Assembly: GCA_001412365.1 (NCBI GenBank)
Contig: LKUE01000103.1
Location: forward strand, 1-6,465
Reading direction: 5' to 3'
Origin: Desulfuromonas sp. SDB
GTDB taxonomy: Bacteria > SDB-A
Length of the DNA: 6,465 nt
The notes under the pieces were generated by a model. That model was given only the letters and a program-made list of their open reading frames with translations, was not told the origin of the DNA and did not search any database. The translations under genes and the position numbers were made by a program. Below, one piece after another: positions 1,318-6,465 of this stretch (positions are counted from its first letter, which is position 1; each line of letters opens with the position of its first letter).

Positions 1318-3079
1318 CGATGATTTCATGTCTAGGGCAAAAAGTTGGTTGTCCTCAGATATTGATGATGATACACGTGATGAAATTCAGGATTTAATAG
1401 ATAATGAAAATATTTCTGAACTTGAAGATAGATTTTACACTGATTTAAAATTCGGAACCGGGGGGATGCGGGGAAAGATGGGGGCAGGAACTAACCGTAT
1501 GAATATCTATACCGTGGGTATTGCCACTCAGGGATTTGCCAGCTATCTACTGGAAAAAAGTTCATCCACTATGAACCAGGGCATAGTGATCGCCCATGAT
1601 TCCAGGAATAATTCACCATTGTTTGCCAAGCGTACTGCTGAGGTTATGGCTGCAAATAAAATTAAAACCTATATTTTCAATAATATCACCCCTACTCCAC
1701 TACTCAGTTTTTCCATCCGGGAATTAGACACAGCAGGAGGGATAGTAATCACTGCCAGTCATAATCCTCCTGAATACAACGGGTATAAAGCCTACCTGGA
1801 TGACGGTGGTCAATTGGTATATCCTGAAGATGAAAAAGTACTGGAGAAGGTCGCCCGAACAACCTTTGAAGATGTAAAAGTTCTTGATTACGAAAAAGCC
1901 AGAGAAGAAAAACTTATAGAAGAGGTGGATGAAAAAATAACAGAAAATTATTTAAAAGCTATATTAAATGCTTTATTGGATTCAGAACTGTGTAAGAAAA
2001 CCGGATCCCAGGTTAAAGTTGTATATTCGCCTCTACACGGAGCAGGCTACCATCTTACTCCTCTTGCGTTGAAAGAAGCTGGTTTTACCAATTTAACCGT
2101 AGTTCCGCAACAAGCTCAGCCTGACGGTAATTTTCCCACTGTTTCCTATCCCAATCCTGAAGATCCCAAAGCATGGGAGCTATCCATTCAGCAAGCCCGG
2201 AAAACAGAAGCTGATCTGGCTATTGCCAACGATCCTGATGCTGACCGGATCGGATTGATGATAAAATTTCCCAATGGTGAATACAAGCTGCTAAATGGAA
2301 ACCAGACCGGAGCATTAATTGTAAATCACGTTCTTTCAAATTTAGCTAAAAAAAATAACTTGCCTGAAAATCCCTATATTATTAAAACTATCGTCACTTC
2401 AGAGTTGTGGAAGAAAATCGCAGATCATTATCAGGTTGATGTAATTGATGTATTAACCGGTTTTAAATACATCGGTGAAATAATAACCAAATATCAGAAA
2501 GAAAAAGAACAAGGAAAATCCAACCGTAATTACATATGCGGAGGAGAAGAAAGCTTCGGATACATGATTGGAGACCATGTCAGAGATAAAGATGGAATCA
2601 ATGCCGCCTTGATCATCGCAGAGATAGCTGCTTTTGCAAAGCAAGAAGGTATAACTCTGTACGATAAACTTCAGAAGATTTATGAAACTTACGGTTTTCA
2701 TACAGAAAAACTGATTTCGTTTGGATTTGAAGGAATTGAAGGCAAACAAAAAATTAATTCAATAATGTCGAAACTCCGTTCTGATCCCCCCCTGCAAATT
2801 CACCAATCACCATTAAAAGAAAAACAGGACTATCTGGAAAAGAAAATTACCGACCAACAGGGAAAACAAACAGGAGAAACAACTCTTCCCCAATCCAATG
2901 TCATTGCCTTATTATTCCAGGATGGAACTAAAATTACAGCAAGACCTTCCGGTACTGAACCAAAAATTAAATTTTACTTTTTTGTCAGCAATCCTCCTGG
3001 ATTAGGTTCTCAGCAACAACTTGAACATAAATTAAAAATAATTGAACAGGAGTACTTAAATCACCTTAACCTAAAATGA
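1313..3079 (+). CDS. pgcA: Phosphoglucomutase / phosphomannomutase, alpha-D-phosphohexomutase family (PgcA-like)
   Basis: Cytoplasmic enzyme interconverting glucose-1-phosphate and glucose-6-phosphate (possibly the mannose phosphates too), linking glycolysis to UDP-glucose, glycogen and envelope sugar synthesis. All four family motifs are present: FGTGGMRG at 47-54, the phosphoserine loop TASHNP at 147-152 with catalytic Ser149, the Mg-binding DPDADR at 307-312, the sugar-recognition loop GEESFG at 411-416, and the phosphate-binding RPSGTEPKIKFY at 544-555. The 588-residue length matches the PgcA branch (about 580) rather than the shorter ~450-residue PMM/PGM branch. The start has a perfect ribosome site and its own promoter candidate. 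The stop overlaps the next start by 4 nt (ATGA), implying translational coupling with the sigma-54 activator. Substrate preference between glucose and mannose cannot be settled from sequence. No key residue is missing. Confidence 0.95.
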   Translation: MNDDFMSRAKSWLSSDIDDDTRDEIQDLIDNENISELEDRFYTDLKFGTGGMRGKMGAGTNRMNIYTVGIATQGFASYLLEKSSSTMNQGIVIAHDSRNNSPLFAKRTAEVMAANKIKTYIFNNITPTPLLSFSIRELDTAGGIVITASHNPPEYNGYKAYLDDGGQLVYPEDEKVLEKVARTTFEDVKVLDYEKAREEKLIEEVDEKITENYLKAILNALLDSELCKKTGSQVKVVYSPLHGAGYHLTPLALKEAGFTNLTVVPQQAQPDGNFPTVSYPNPEDPKAWELSIQQARKTEADLAIANDPDADRIGLMIKFPNGEYKLLNGNQTGALIVNHVLSNLAKKNNLPENPYIIKTIVTSELWKKIADHYQVDVIDVLTGFKYIGEIITKYQKEKEQGKSNRNYICGGEESFGYMIGDHVRDKDGINAALIIAEIAAFAKQEGITLYDKLQKIYETYGFHTEKLISFGFEGIEGKQKINSIMSKLRSDPPLQIHQSPLKEKQDYLEKKITDQQGKQTGETTLPQSNVIALLFQDGTKITARPSGTEPKIKFYFFVSNPPGLGSQQQLEHKLKIIEQEYLNHLNLK

Positions 3080-4371
3080 ATCTCTATTCATCCATACTTG
3101 ATTCATTAACTGAAGGAGTATTTGCAGTAGATTTAGACTGGAAAATTATATACTTCAATTCAGCTGCAGAGAAAATTACCAGGGTCAGTAAAAAACAGGC
3201 ATTGGGCAGTAACTGCCAGGAAGTACTAAAAGCGGATATTTGTGATTCCGGCTGTCTGTTAAAAAAGACATTGGATACCGGAAAAGTCATTGCTGGTAAA
3301 ATAATTCAAATCATTGATGCAGAAGGCAATCTCAAGAACATAAGCATTTCTACTAACCTTTTAAAAGATAATCAGGGTAAGGTGAACGGAGGGGTAGAAA
3401 GCTTTTTTGAAGTTAGTGGACCTAACCTTCTCAAACCTTCAATTCCAATAATTGGTAAATCTAAAAAAATCAGCGAATTACGATCAGTGCTTCCTGAAAT
3501 AGCTTCCAGCAATGCCAATGTATTGATTACCGGAGGAACCGGCACCGGAAAGGAAGTATTTGCCCGTTACATCCATAACCATAGCAGGCAAGCTGATAAA
3601 AAATTTATAGTGGTAAATTGTGCAGCTATTCCCCACCATCTCCTGGAAGCTGAACTATTTGGATATAAGAAAGGAGCATTTACCGGAGCTGAAAAAAATA
3701 AGCCCGGAAAAGTAAAATTAGCAGACAAAGGAACGTTATTCCTGGATGAAATCGGAGAAATACCCTTACTGCTGCAGTCAAAACTGCTTCGCTTTCTGGA
3801 GGATAAAACTTTTGAACCTTTGGGATCTACCGAACCGGAATACAGCAGAACCCGAATTATTTCAGCGACTAACCGGAACCTTGATAAAATGACTGAAAAT
3901 AACGAATTCAGAGATGACCTTTTTTTCAGGTTAAAGGTAATTCATATTGATATCCCCCCGCTAAGAGAGAGGAAAGAAGATATTCCTCTGTTAATTGACT
4001 ATTTTATTTACAAGTTTAACCGTGAATACCAAAAAGAAATTACCGGAATTTCAGATCAGGGGTTATTATGGTTGATGAAATATGATTTTCCAGGTAATAT
4101 TCGAGAATTGGAAAATATGGTTGAAAGATCTTTTGTGTTTAAAAAAGAAGGTCTTTTGGAAATCCAGGATTTACCTGAAGAAATTAATAAAACTGTGAAA
4201 TTTAATACTAATTTAGATTATCAAAATTTAAGTTTGGAGCAGGTAGAAAAAATCGTAATAGAAAATGCTCTAATTCGAAACAACTACAACCAAACTGCTA
4301 CTGCCCAACAGCTGGGTATTCACCGAACCACTCTGATAAGAAAAATGAAAAAATTCAACCTGGGAATTTGA
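3076..4371 (+). CDS. Sigma-54-dependent transcriptional activator (PAS - AAA+ - Fis-type HTH)
   Basis: Bacterial enhancer-binding protein that hydrolyses ATP to remodel sigma-54 RNA polymerase at -24/-12 promoters. An N-terminal PAS domain (about 5-114) carries a cysteine cluster at C47, C56 and C60. The AAA+ core (about 124-352) shows a Walker A GGTGTGKE at 153-160 (GESGTGKE is more usual), the sigma-54 contact loop GAFTGA at 200-205, Walker B LFLDE at 221-225, ATNRNL sensor I, the FRDDLFFRL arginine-finger segment at 278-286, PPLRER, and FPGNIRELENMVER at 338-351. The C-terminus (about 388-428) is a Fis-type helix-turn-helix. There is no receiver domain, so control is probably by ligand or redox sensing in PAS rather than phosphorylation. 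The start overlaps the phosphoglucomutase stop by 4 nt and has no good ribosome site of its own. A sigma-54 promoter and paired upstream sites about 1 kb downstream are its likely targets (inferred). Confidence 0.95.
   Translation: MNLYSSILDSLTEGVFAVDLDWKIIYFNSAAEKITRVSKKQALGSNCQEVLKADICDSGCLLKKTLDTGKVIAGKIIQIIDAEGNLKNISISTNLLKDNQGKVNGGVESFFEVSGPNLLKPSIPIIGKSKKISELRSVLPEIASSNANVLITGGTGTGKEVFARYIHNHSRQADKKFIVVNCAAIPHHLLEAELFGYKKGAFTGAEKNKPGKVKLADKGTLFLDEIGEIPLLLQSKLLRFLEDKTFEPLGSTEPEYSRTRIISATNRNLDKMTENNEFRDDLFFRLKVIHIDIPPLRERKEDIPLLIDYFIYKFNREYQKEITGISDQGLLWLMKYDFPGNIRELENMVERSFVFKKEGLLEIQDLPEEINKTVKFNTNLDYQNLSLEQVEKIVIENALIRNNYNQTATAQQLGIHRTTLIRKMKKFNLGI
3214..3255 (+). other. Cysteine cluster in the PAS sensor domain (C47, C56, C60)
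   Basis: Residues 47-60 contain three cysteines in the pattern C-x8-C-x3-C (NCQEV...DICDSGC). They sit within the PAS fold where a sensor ligand would be expected. Cysteines grouped this way can bind a metal or Fe-S cluster or form disulfides. Which, if any, applies here is inference. Confidence 0.6.
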
Positions 4372-4814
4372 TGTACTACTTCGCTTACGGATCAAACATG
4401 AATTTATTAAGATTGCAAAATAGGTTGGGATATACCCCTAAATACCAAAAAGGGGTACTGGATGATTATGAGTTAATTTTTAACTTGACCAATAAAAGAA
4501 TCCCTGGATCTGCTTATGCTAATATCAGAAAGAAAGCTCAATCAAAAGTAGAAGGAATTCTGTATTCTATTTCTGAGGAAGACTTTAAAAAACTGGATCT
4601 TTATGAAGCTTTTCCCAAACACTATATTAAAATTCAAGTGCTGGTGAAGAACAGCCACGCTGTAGTCAATGCAACTACTTATATCGGCAACAAAGATTTA
4701 CTTGAAAATAATCTAAAACCTACCAGGGAATATATAAATTACTTATTGAATCCTGCAGTAGAATTATCTCCTGAATATTATAAAAAATTATCTGGTTATA
4801 AAACTTTAGATTAA
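4371..4814 (+). CDS. Gamma-glutamylcyclotransferase-like (AIG2/GGCT fold) protein
   Basis: Small cytoplasmic protein of the GGCT/AIG2 family, whose members release 5-oxoproline from gamma-glutamyl amines or peptides. The signature YFAYGSNM sits at the N-terminus (the YGSNM substrate loop), and LDLYEAFPKHY supplies the expected catalytic acid, Glu79 when counting from the ATG. The 147-residue length fits the family. I prefer ATG at 4371, which shares its A with the activator's TGA stop. A TTG at 4368 would add one residue. There is no strong ribosome site, so translation probably depends on coupling to the gene before it. Substrate is unknown: bacterial members range over glutathione-type, gamma-glutamylamine and uncharacterised reactions. 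Its place in an operon with a phosphoglucomutase and a regulator gives no clear pathway. Confidence 0.88.
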   Translation: MYYFAYGSNMNLLRLQNRLGYTPKYQKGVLDDYELIFNLTNKRIPGSAYANIRKKAQSKVEGILYSISEEDFKKLDLYEAFPKHYIKIQVLVKNSHAVVNATTYIGNKDLLENNLKPTREYINYLLNPAVELSPEYYKKLSGYKTLD

Positions 4815-4837: not shown

Positions 4838-5266
4838 ATGGAACAAGAGAAAAAATCTTCTATTCCCGTAGCAGTTATAGTTATTATTGCAATCATTATC
4901 ATGATCCCGATATGCGGAATTATTGCTGCAATTGCCATACCCAGTTTTATTAAATATCGAAATAAATCTATAGAGAAACTGGTAATTACAAATGCTGAAA
5001 TTTTAAGAGATTCAGTTGAAGTTTACCGGGCTAAATCCGATCAGGATGTATACCCATCCAATGTAGATGATCCTGAGTTCATCTTATTGGAAAATCCGAT
5101 AAATGAATACGAACAAGCCATTATAGCAGGAGATCAGCAGCCTCCATCAATTGATAAAAGCCTGGAAGGTTGTGTGTACTACTATCTTTATCCGGATAAA
5201 AGGGATTATACAATTGTTGGTTATGGTTTAGGCGGAGAACCAATTATTACAATTAAACCAAATTGA
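4838..5266 (+). CDS. Small membrane-anchored pseudopilin-like protein lacking a canonical prepilin peptidase site
   Basis: A 142-residue protein with a short polar N-terminus (MEQEKKSS), one long hydrophobic helix (about 9-35), then GIIAAIAIPSFIKYRNKS. That last stretch closely resembles the second half of a type IV pilin or type II secretion pseudopilin helix (GILAAIAIPxFxxYR). The following region, with a Y-P-S motif near 72-74 and a tyrosine-rich beta-like C-terminus (GCVYYYLYP), also fits a pseudopilin head. The usual GFTLIE prepilin cleavage motif is absent: an Ile/Val-rich stretch replaces it, without the conserved Glu at mature position 5. It may therefore stay as a simple membrane-anchored protein with an outward domain. 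No other pilus gene is nearby. It starts 23 bp after the cyclotransferase-like gene with a good ribosome site and is probably the last gene of that operon. Function unknown. Confidence 0.75.
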   Translation: MEQEKKSSIPVAVIVIIAIIIMIPICGIIAAIAIPSFIKYRNKSIEKLVITNAEILRDSVEVYRAKSDQDVYPSNVDDPEFILLENPINEYEQAIIAGDQQPPSIDKSLEGCVYYYLYPDKRDYTIVGYGLGGEPIITIKPN

Positions 5267-5267
5267 T

Positions 5268-5310
5268 GCAATATGCTACATTATATATTATAATTAATGC
5301 TGCATATTGC
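5268..5310. repeat. Exact 9-bp inverted repeat; two candidate activator binding sites
   Basis: GCAATATGC (5268-5276) and its exact reverse complement GCATATTGC (5302-5310) flank a 25-nt AT-rich spacer. Each arm is itself a near-palindrome (GCA-N3-TGC) and both are preceded by T, so both read TGCA-N3-TGC on the plus strand. Centres are 34 bp apart and lie about 152 and 118 bp upstream of the predicted start. That position fits upstream activator sites of a sigma-54 enhancer-binding protein. A terminator is less likely because the loop is long and no T-tract follows directly. Confidence 0.6.
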
Positions 5311-5397
5311 GACTATTTGTTTAATATTTTCATTTAAACTAAAACTTACACACTCTTATACTTCTTAATTCCATTACTTATAAATATATGTTATTTA

Positions 5398-5413
5398 TGG
5401 CATGAATATTGCA
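5398..5413 (+). promoter_or_regulatory. Sigma-54 (-24/-12) promoter of the NifX-like operon
   Basis: TGGCAT (5398-5403), 5 bp, then TTGCA (5409-5413) matches the TGGCAC-N5-TTGCA consensus at all but one base. The invariant GG (5399-5400) and GC (5411-5412) are separated by exactly 10 bp. The predicted start is about 5424, 20 nt before the ATG at 5444. No competing good sigma-70 promoter is seen at this distance. Confidence 0.85.
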
Positions 5414-5443: not shown

Positions 5444-5833
5444 ATGATAGTTGCAGTTTCAAATTGGAAAGATGAAATAGCAGTAACCTTTGATTTTTCC
5501 AATTCATTAGTAATATATCAATTTATTGAAAATAAGTGGAATAAAATCGAAGAAGTAAAAATTAATTCCAGAGATTCTGAAACTGCAGTGGAAATTTTAA
5601 AAAGAAACAAAGTTGAAATATTATTATGCGGGGCAATTTCAAAAAAGATGTTAGATAATTTAGAACTAAGTAACATCAAGGTAATACCCTTCCTTCGAGG
5701 TAAAATCGAAGATGTATTATCACTATTCCAGCAAGGGAATATATCCAGTAGCCGCTGCTTCCTTCCAGGATTCCGGAGAGGACGCGGTTTGGGCAGAAAA
5801 AGAAGATTTAGAGGTAATAAAAATAACTTATAA
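5444..5833 (+). CDS. NifX/NifB-type dinitrogenase iron-molybdenum cofactor domain protein with Arg-rich tail
   Basis: A 129-residue cytoplasmic protein whose first ~105 residues follow the NifX/NafY/NifB C-terminal domain pattern: MIVAVSNWKDEIAVTFDFSN at the start (beta strand and F-D segment), an A-x2-I-L helix, ILLCGAIS (59-66) with Cys62, then IKVIPFLRGKIEDVLSLFQQG. Family members bind iron-sulfur or molybdenum clusters. The stand-alone anaerobe versions include the orange protein family. A second cysteine, C105, lies in RCFLPGF, where relatives often have a Cys-containing PGC-like end. The tail (111-123) is unusually basic, RRGRGLGRKRRFRG. This is the first gene of the sigma-54 operon, and the next gene begins 12 nt after its stop. 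No nitrogenase gene is present, so a role in nitrogen fixation is not supported; cluster carriage or storage is the inference. Confidence 0.85.
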   Translation: MIVAVSNWKDEIAVTFDFSNSLVIYQFIENKWNKIEEVKINSRDSETAVEILKRNKVEILLCGAISKKMLDNLELSNIKVIPFLRGKIEDVLSLFQQGNISSSRCFLPGFRRGRGLGRKRRFRGNKNNL

Positions 5834-5845: not shown

Positions 5846-6049
5846 ATGCCAGGAGGAGACAGAACCGGACCCATTGGACAGGGACCCCGAACCGGAAGAG
5901 GTTTAGGAGACTGCCAGGGAACTGGTGGAAATGTTAGTCAATGGTTTGGAAACTTAACCAGGAATTTCCTGGGCAGAGGTCTTGGCTTAGGTAGAGGGGG
6001 AGGCAGAGGAAGAGGTAGAGGTCAGGGAATTGGAAGAGGAAGAAGATAA
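5846..6049 (+). CDS. Short Gly/Arg-rich MPGGDRTGP protein (DUF5320-like), no coiled coil
   Basis: A 67-residue protein opening with MPGGDRTGPIGQGPRTGRG, the N-terminal signature of small proteins found beside NifX-like genes in anaerobes (DUF5320 type). Cys23 (in GDCQG) matches the single cysteine of the next gene's product. The middle (NVSQWFGNLTRNF) is the only non-repetitive part. The last 25 residues are almost entirely Gly and Arg with a few Leu (GRGLGLGRGGGRGRGRGQ, then GIGRGRR), giving a strongly basic tail. No transmembrane segment or enzyme motif is present. It is a paralogue of the downstream protein but ends before any coiled-coil region. The strong ribosome site and shared N-terminus argue that it is a real gene. 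Function is unknown; binding to the NifX-like protein, nucleic acid or a metal cluster are possibilities only. Confidence 0.8.
   Translation: MPGGDRTGPIGQGPRTGRGLGDCQGTGGNVSQWFGNLTRNFLGRGLGLGRGGGRGRGRGQGIGRGRR
5972..6046 (+). repeat. Gly/Arg-rich, purine-dominated low-complexity tract
   Basis: This encodes the GRG-rich tail (residues 43-67) of the short protein. The plus strand is nearly all purines with several G-runs, including GAGGGGGAGG near 5993-6002. The simple repeat makes it prone to slippage. Confidence 0.7.
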
Positions 6050-6076: not shown

Positions 6077-6409
6077 ATGCCAGGAGGCGATAGAACAGGA
6101 CCAATGGGCTATGGCCCCATGACCGGACGAGGTGCCGGCTTTTGCGCTGGTTACAACCGTCCCGGATATACTAATCCAGGCTATGGAAGAGGAATGGGAA
6201 GAGGATTTGGAAGGGGATTTGGCCGGGGAATGGGAAGAGGAATGGGCTGGGGTTACGGAAGATTCATGGGTTGGGGACCGGTAAATTACTTGCCTGCAAA
6301 TCAGCCCTATGATAATGAAGCCGATTATCTAAAAGCTCATGCAGAAATGCTGGAACAGGAATTAAACCAGATTAAACAGCGAATGAGTGAATTGGAAAAC
6401 AAAGAGTAA
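6077..6409 (+). CDS. DUF5320-type protein: MPGGDRTGP head, GRGM/GRGF repeats, C-terminal coiled coil
   Basis: A 110-residue protein with the family head MPGGDRTGPMGYGPMTGRG, then AGFCAGY with Cys23 and an aromatic NRPGYTNPGYG segment. Five tetrapeptide repeats GRG(M/F) follow at 37-56, then a Trp/Met-rich stretch (GWGYGRFMGWGP). The end (about 77-110) is a charged amphipathic helix with Leu at heptad-like spacing (ADYLKAHAEMLEQELNQIK, QRMSELE), likely a coiled coil for self-association or partner binding. It has no membrane segment or catalytic motif. Such proteins recur next to NifX-like and MinD-type ATPase genes in anaerobes, but their function is not established to my knowledge. It is the last gene of the sigma-54 operon, with a terminator right behind it, so no MinD-type ATPase belongs to this transcript. 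Confidence 0.87.
   Translation: MPGGDRTGPMGYGPMTGRGAGFCAGYNRPGYTNPGYGRGMGRGFGRGFGRGMGRGMGWGYGRFMGWGPVNYLPANQPYDNEADYLKAHAEMLEQELNQIKQRMSELENKE
6185..6244 (+). repeat. 12-bp coding repeat (five GRGM/GRGF units)
   Basis: Five consecutive 12-bp units encode GRGM, GRGF, GRGF, GRGM, GRGM. An exact 15-bp copy, GGAATGGGAAGAGGA, occurs at 6191-6205 and 6227-6241 (offset 36 bp), and GGATTTGG recurs at 6203 and 6215 (offset 12 bp). The pattern suggests expansion by in-frame slippage or unequal exchange. Confidence 0.85.
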
Positions 6410-6416
6410 CCAAATC

Positions 6417-6440
6417 GGGGAGAGCAGTATTCTCCCCTTT
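6417..6440 (+). terminator. Rho-independent terminator of the NifX-like operon
   Basis: GGGGAGA (6417-6423) pairs perfectly with TCTCCCC (6431-6437) around a 7-nt loop and is followed by TTT, with a further T6 run at 6447-6452. It begins 7 nt after the last stop codon. The immediate T-tract is short, but stem strength and placement are convincing. Confidence 0.85.
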
Positions 6441-6465
6441 AATCCCTTTTTTATAAATTTTTCCC

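Follow-up and report, generated by a model that had tools for sequence, protein, structure and literature searches.

Paired near-palindromes at enhancer distance from a sigma-54 promoter, probable binding sites of a PAS-type activator beside a nifX-DUF5320 operon of Desulfuromonas sp. SDB

Two near-palindromes lie upstream of a sigma-54 promoter in the 6,465-nucleotide stretch of Desulfuromonas sp. SDB DNA analyzed here in full (contig LKUE01000103.1; hereafter, the window). Both sites are real, and comparison with relatives indicates that they are very probably landing pads of the neighbouring activator; about two dozen other bacterial loci have the same pair, placed likewise before genes of this metal-cofactor type. 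We consider it likely that they are tandem dimer sites, an upstream activating sequence through which the activator encoded at 3076-4371 would drive a nifX-DUF5320-DUF5320 operon (Table 1). The sites, the promoter, the protein domains, the rpoN gene (sigma-54) encoded in the same genome, and their arrangement, conserved across many lineages, form a classical sigma-54 enhancer anatomy.

Table 1. Features of the window, with the evidence for each
Feature	Position	Strand	Evidence
Activator with PAS domain, AAA+ domain with GAFTGA, and Fis-type helix-turn-helix; presumed binder	3076-4371	+	Pfam PAS, Sigma54_activat, HTH_8; family alignment
Type IV pilin-like gene directly upstream of the operators	4838-5266	+	NCBIfam weak PilA/GspG matches
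Distal operator, palindrome GATGCA-ATA-TGCTAC	5265-5279	.	Sequence; top profile match in the window, 13.9 bits
Proximal operator, palindrome GCTGCA-TAT-TGCGAC	5299-5313	.	Sequence; second-best profile match in the window, 11.8 bits
Sigma-54 promoter TGGCATGAATATTGCA, -24/-12, GG-N10-GC, estimated start 5424	5398-5413	+	Sequence; consensus score 28.0 of 28.5
NifX-like protein (Nitro_FeMo-Co, PF02579), gene 1 of the target operon	5444-5833	+	Pfam
DUF5320 protein, gene 2 of the target operon	5846-6049	+	Pfam PF17253
DUF5320 protein, gene 3 of the target operon	6077-6409	+	Pfam PF17253
Probable intrinsic terminator of the target operon, GGGGAGA..TCTCCCC, few bases, then T-rich	6417-6452	+	Sequence

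Upstream activating sequences consist of one or more sites of dyad symmetry, some 80-200 bp before a -24/-12 promoter. The two sites, with cores TGCAATATGC (5267-5276, TGCA-ATA-TGC) and TGCATATTGC (5301-5310, TGCA-TAT-TGC), are centred on 5272 and 5306, 34 bp apart, at -152 and -118 relative to the estimated start; the sequence thus confirmed the geometry given in the original prediction, although the symmetric units are slightly longer than the coordinates it gave. The distal operator overlaps the TGA stop codon (5264-5266) of the pilin-like gene. The four half-sites read GATGCA, GTAGCA, GCTGCA, and GTCGCA, and the operator unit may be written as about RTYGCA-N3/4-TGCRAY, a 4-bp spacer being usual in relatives.

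The exact 9-bp inverted repeat on which the prediction had also dwelt exists as described, GCAATATGC (5268-5276) being the reverse complement of GCATATTGC (5302-5310). However, the window holds three exact 9-mer inverted repeats whose arms are no more than 60 bp apart (the pair at 5267-5310 and two others), so that the repeat by itself is weak evidence. The spacer bases ATA/TAT, from which it gains its length, are not conserved in relatives, and the 9-bp repeat is therefore incidental. The proposed genome-wide frequency check gave a divided answer: TGCA-N3-TGC occurs 207 times in the 3.14-Mb genome (both strands counted), so single sites are common, whereas pairs of GCA-N3-TGC 10-40 bp apart occur at two places, 5267-5310 and one on contig C158.

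Relatives of the activator were present in 60 of the 386 genomes searched (E <= 1e-130; the 60 include the window's own genome), and the window protein was at most 47% identical to them. In many genomes, members of the family lie beside sigma-54 promoters and NifX/DUF5320 genes; in many relatives about 100-250 bp separate the activator from a NifX-like gene that has a strong sigma-54 promoter. In most relatives the activator gene borders directly on the nifX promoter region, unlike in the window, where a GGACT-family gene (4371-4814) and the pilin-like gene separate it from its presumed target. These genes form a rightward operon made up of a phosphohexomutase-like gene, the activator, the GGACT-family gene, and the pilin-like gene ending at 5266. 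A TTGACT-N15-TATAAT element at 1255-1281, upstream of the gene at 1313, resembles by eye a short-spacer housekeeping promoter and possibly serves the operon that includes the activator. In trees, the window protein fell on a long or deep branch (support 0.51-0.95) near other activators, beside truncated outgroups that consist of the AAA+ and helix-turn-helix parts only, which partly accounts for its weak placement. Given this branch and the low identity, its orthology to the relatives is not certain.

The phylogenetic footprint drew on 33 sigma-54 promoters, each at a locus where NifX-like/DUF5320 genes have a related PAS-AAA+-Fis activator nearby, and covered 40-230 bp upstream of each promoter; the window was left out. 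In an unbiased count of exact dyads, GCA-N4-TGC ranked first, with 17 of the 33 loci against a mean of 1.87 in random stretches from these loci, and no dyad of whatever kind exceeded 11 loci in 100 control draws. TTGCA-N4-TGCAA and TCGCA-N4-TGCGA came next (five loci each). The half-site profile built from these loci reads G-T-Y-G-C-A (Y, T or C). Profile pairs 28-36 bp apart with a score of at least 18 were found at 25 of the 33 loci, compared with 0.3% of dinucleotide shuffles, which bears out the expectation that the motif would be conserved; eight loci had no clear pair. The sites of a pair were 29-34 bp apart, in most cases 32; measured from the -24 element, they lay near -93/-125 or -107/-139 (-91.5/-125.5 in the window). 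In most loci, a base-blind scan for symmetry and for likeness of the four arms arrived at these sites and positions as well.

The profile, trained without the window, had its two best window matches at the 5267-5310 sites, and in 4000 dinucleotide shuffles of the region upstream no pair equalled this one. Nor was there a comparable pair at 28 other sigma-54-like sites of the same genome (best 13.6 vs 25.7). A chance repeat in A+T-rich intergenic DNA is an explanation that the number of 9-bp repeats in the window and the many single TGCA-N3-TGC sites would allow, but an independently trained profile that matches at the conserved position and spacing, together with the shuffles, makes it extremely improbable. 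Four other genomes (G047, G081, G117, and G254) have a sole GCA-N4-TGC pair genome-wide, and it adjoins the activator gene. Two further members of the activator family (L032 and L034) have clear pairs that begin at or near the activator stop codon, and a third (L033) has similar sites, weaker by eye. The spacer is 3 bp in both window sites and 4 bp in most relatives; the shorter one was also found in L233 and L250 and at one site each of L038 and L236.

An inverted repeat just past a stop codon could also act in RNA, as a hairpin that terminates or stabilises the pilin-like transcript at its 3' end, and not as a protein site. The predicted RNA fold of the region is strong (-22.7 kcal/mol, z -4.8), begins at the pilin-like stop codon, and is followed by a somewhat T-rich stretch. 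However, the 5267-5310 hairpin was absent from the list of a consensus terminator scan, and the pair is kept where no gene ends, for example at L035 and L226, which have divergent activator genes. In the relatives, moreover, each site is symmetric by itself, the half-sites are conserved while spacer and loop vary, and the distance from the pair to the sigma-54 promoter is kept. We therefore rejected the hairpin in spite of the strong fold and hold it to be quite improbable. The same scan gave the stem at 6417-6452 on the minus strand only, so the use of that terminator on the plus strand was read by eye.

The sites might instead be bound by another sigma-54 activator, such as a pili-type regulator. 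The genome encodes others that could bind, the gene upstream of the operators is pilin-like, and a single N3 palindrome stands at each of two other sigma-54-like promoters of the genome, TTTGCAATATGCAAT (contig C14) and TTTGCAAAATGCGAA (contig C257). These palindromes are single, however, with TTTGCA flanks that are not GTYGCA-like, and in relatives the paired sites go with the PAS-Cys activator and with NifX/DUF5320 genes; we judge this alternative unlikely. The C14 promoter (L087, sites near 4029-4039) belongs to a secreted-protein gene and has TTTGCA-ATA-TGCAAT at -94.5 and a further palindrome at -185. At C257 (L106, promoter at 1350), TTTGCA-AAA-TGCGAA lies at -81.5 from the sigma-54-like promoter of a pilin gene.

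The comparison with relatives thus favours the original proposal of paired dimeric sites for an enhancer-binding protein, probably the 3076-4371 product. This protein has the AAA+ GAFTGA loop and the Fis-type helix-turn-helix expected of a sigma-54 activator, and no NCBIfam equivalog reached its cut-off for it. We infer the identity of the binding protein, the looping, and the signal. Two activator dimers would bind operators about three helical turns apart, and their pairing may help the activator to assemble as a ring. A DNA loop over about 90 bp would then bring the activator to the sigma-54 RNA polymerase at 5398-5413, and hydrolysis of ATP would open the nifX-DUF5320-DUF5320 promoter there. 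The PAS domain of the window protein has cysteines at 47, 56, and 60 (C-x8-C-x3-C), a triad found in 83 of the 86 family members aligned; it suggests that the input may be metal, iron-sulphur, or redox in nature.

The closest known system is that of DVU2106 of Desulfovibrio vulgaris Hildenborough, a sigma-54 activator of two divergent orp operons that acts via palindromic sites (PMC3897727; listed in PMC4641369). These are centred at -131 and -88 in orp1/orp2, one per promoter as reported (PMC3897727), whereas the window has two in tandem. DVU2106 is a relative by function, and the window activator can be called OrpR-like: it is likewise a PAS-type single-component sigma-54 activator with upstream palindromes, and its presumed target likewise encodes a protein with the dinitrogenase iron-molybdenum-cofactor domain (the NifX-like protein, for which NCBIfam also gives a weak match, to the MrpORP C-terminal part). 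The activator at orp-like Desulfovibrionaceae loci is related and also has the cysteine triad, and in the palindromes there, GGCGC-N5-GCGCC, the core takes a GC-rich form; this operator was deduced from those loci. It amounts to the same core, in the 3-bp-spacer register. GGCG-N7-CGCC was found in 12 of 20 orp-like divergent loci against a control value of 0.0, and in three Desulfovibrionaceae-like loci (L273, L275, and L219) the activator stands between divergent sigma-54 promoters and the palindromes read GGCGC-N5-GCGCC.

The window works like the DVU2106/orp system but is not a member of it by gene order, cargo, or half-site. Its half-sites are GTYGCA-like and do not fit GGCGC-N5-GCGCC, whereas those of the orp-like loci are GGCGCA-like. 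The window activator has GAFTGA and the recognition helix GIHRTTL, the orp-like ones GAFTDA and GISKDTL. A single co-directional operon, with a NifX-like and two DUF5320 genes, stands in the window; in the orp system the activator lies between divergent operons that encode the ORP complex and MrpORP, and IHF sites between activator sites and promoter belong to that system as well.

NifA and NtrC systems, like the window, have paired dyads upstream of a -24/-12 promoter, and a nif-related gene lies downstream here. The upstream activating sequence of NifA is TGT-N10-ACA. Neither this motif nor an NtrC-like TGCAC-N6-GTGCA (up to two mismatches) was found in the window, and the activator scored far under the NCBIfam cut-offs (294.7 vs 528.85 for NifA; 283.9 vs 558.6 for NtrC). 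Both identities were rejected.

The suggestion that the operator might be undescribed holds in part. DVU2106, with its own palindromes at the orp promoters (PMC3897727), is a functional relative; a description of a GTYGCA-pair operator was not found in the literature searched, the coverage of which was incomplete. The pair and its presumed binder supply a concrete operator and regulator candidate for NifX-like/DUF5320 operons and link these to the better-studied Desulfovibrio orp system. Such operons are common in anaerobes, and we know of no role assigned to them. The conserved pair offers a ready search signature for the regulon. A search of 24 genomes with the core alone returned mostly background matches, so the core pair by itself is not usable as a regulon finder; such a search is specific only with the full positional context.

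On a broader reading, about which we are evenly divided, the window would be a divergent branch, with 3-bp spacers, of a widespread unnamed system. In it, activators with three PAS cysteines would pass a metal, iron-sulphur, or redox signal to NifX/DUF5320 operons via a fixed GTYGCA-N4-TGCRAC enhancer pair, and the half-site would change with the recognition helix (IHKTTL, ISRTTL, and ISKDTL types). Matched changes of this kind might allow the DNA code of the activator family to be read; the covariation of half-site and helix, seen in few loci, is only suggestive of a recognition code. Three loci (L040, L259, and L253) have the recognition helices ISRTTL, VSRTTL, and IGRKTL, and their half-sites are GTTTCA or GTATCA, not GTYGCA.
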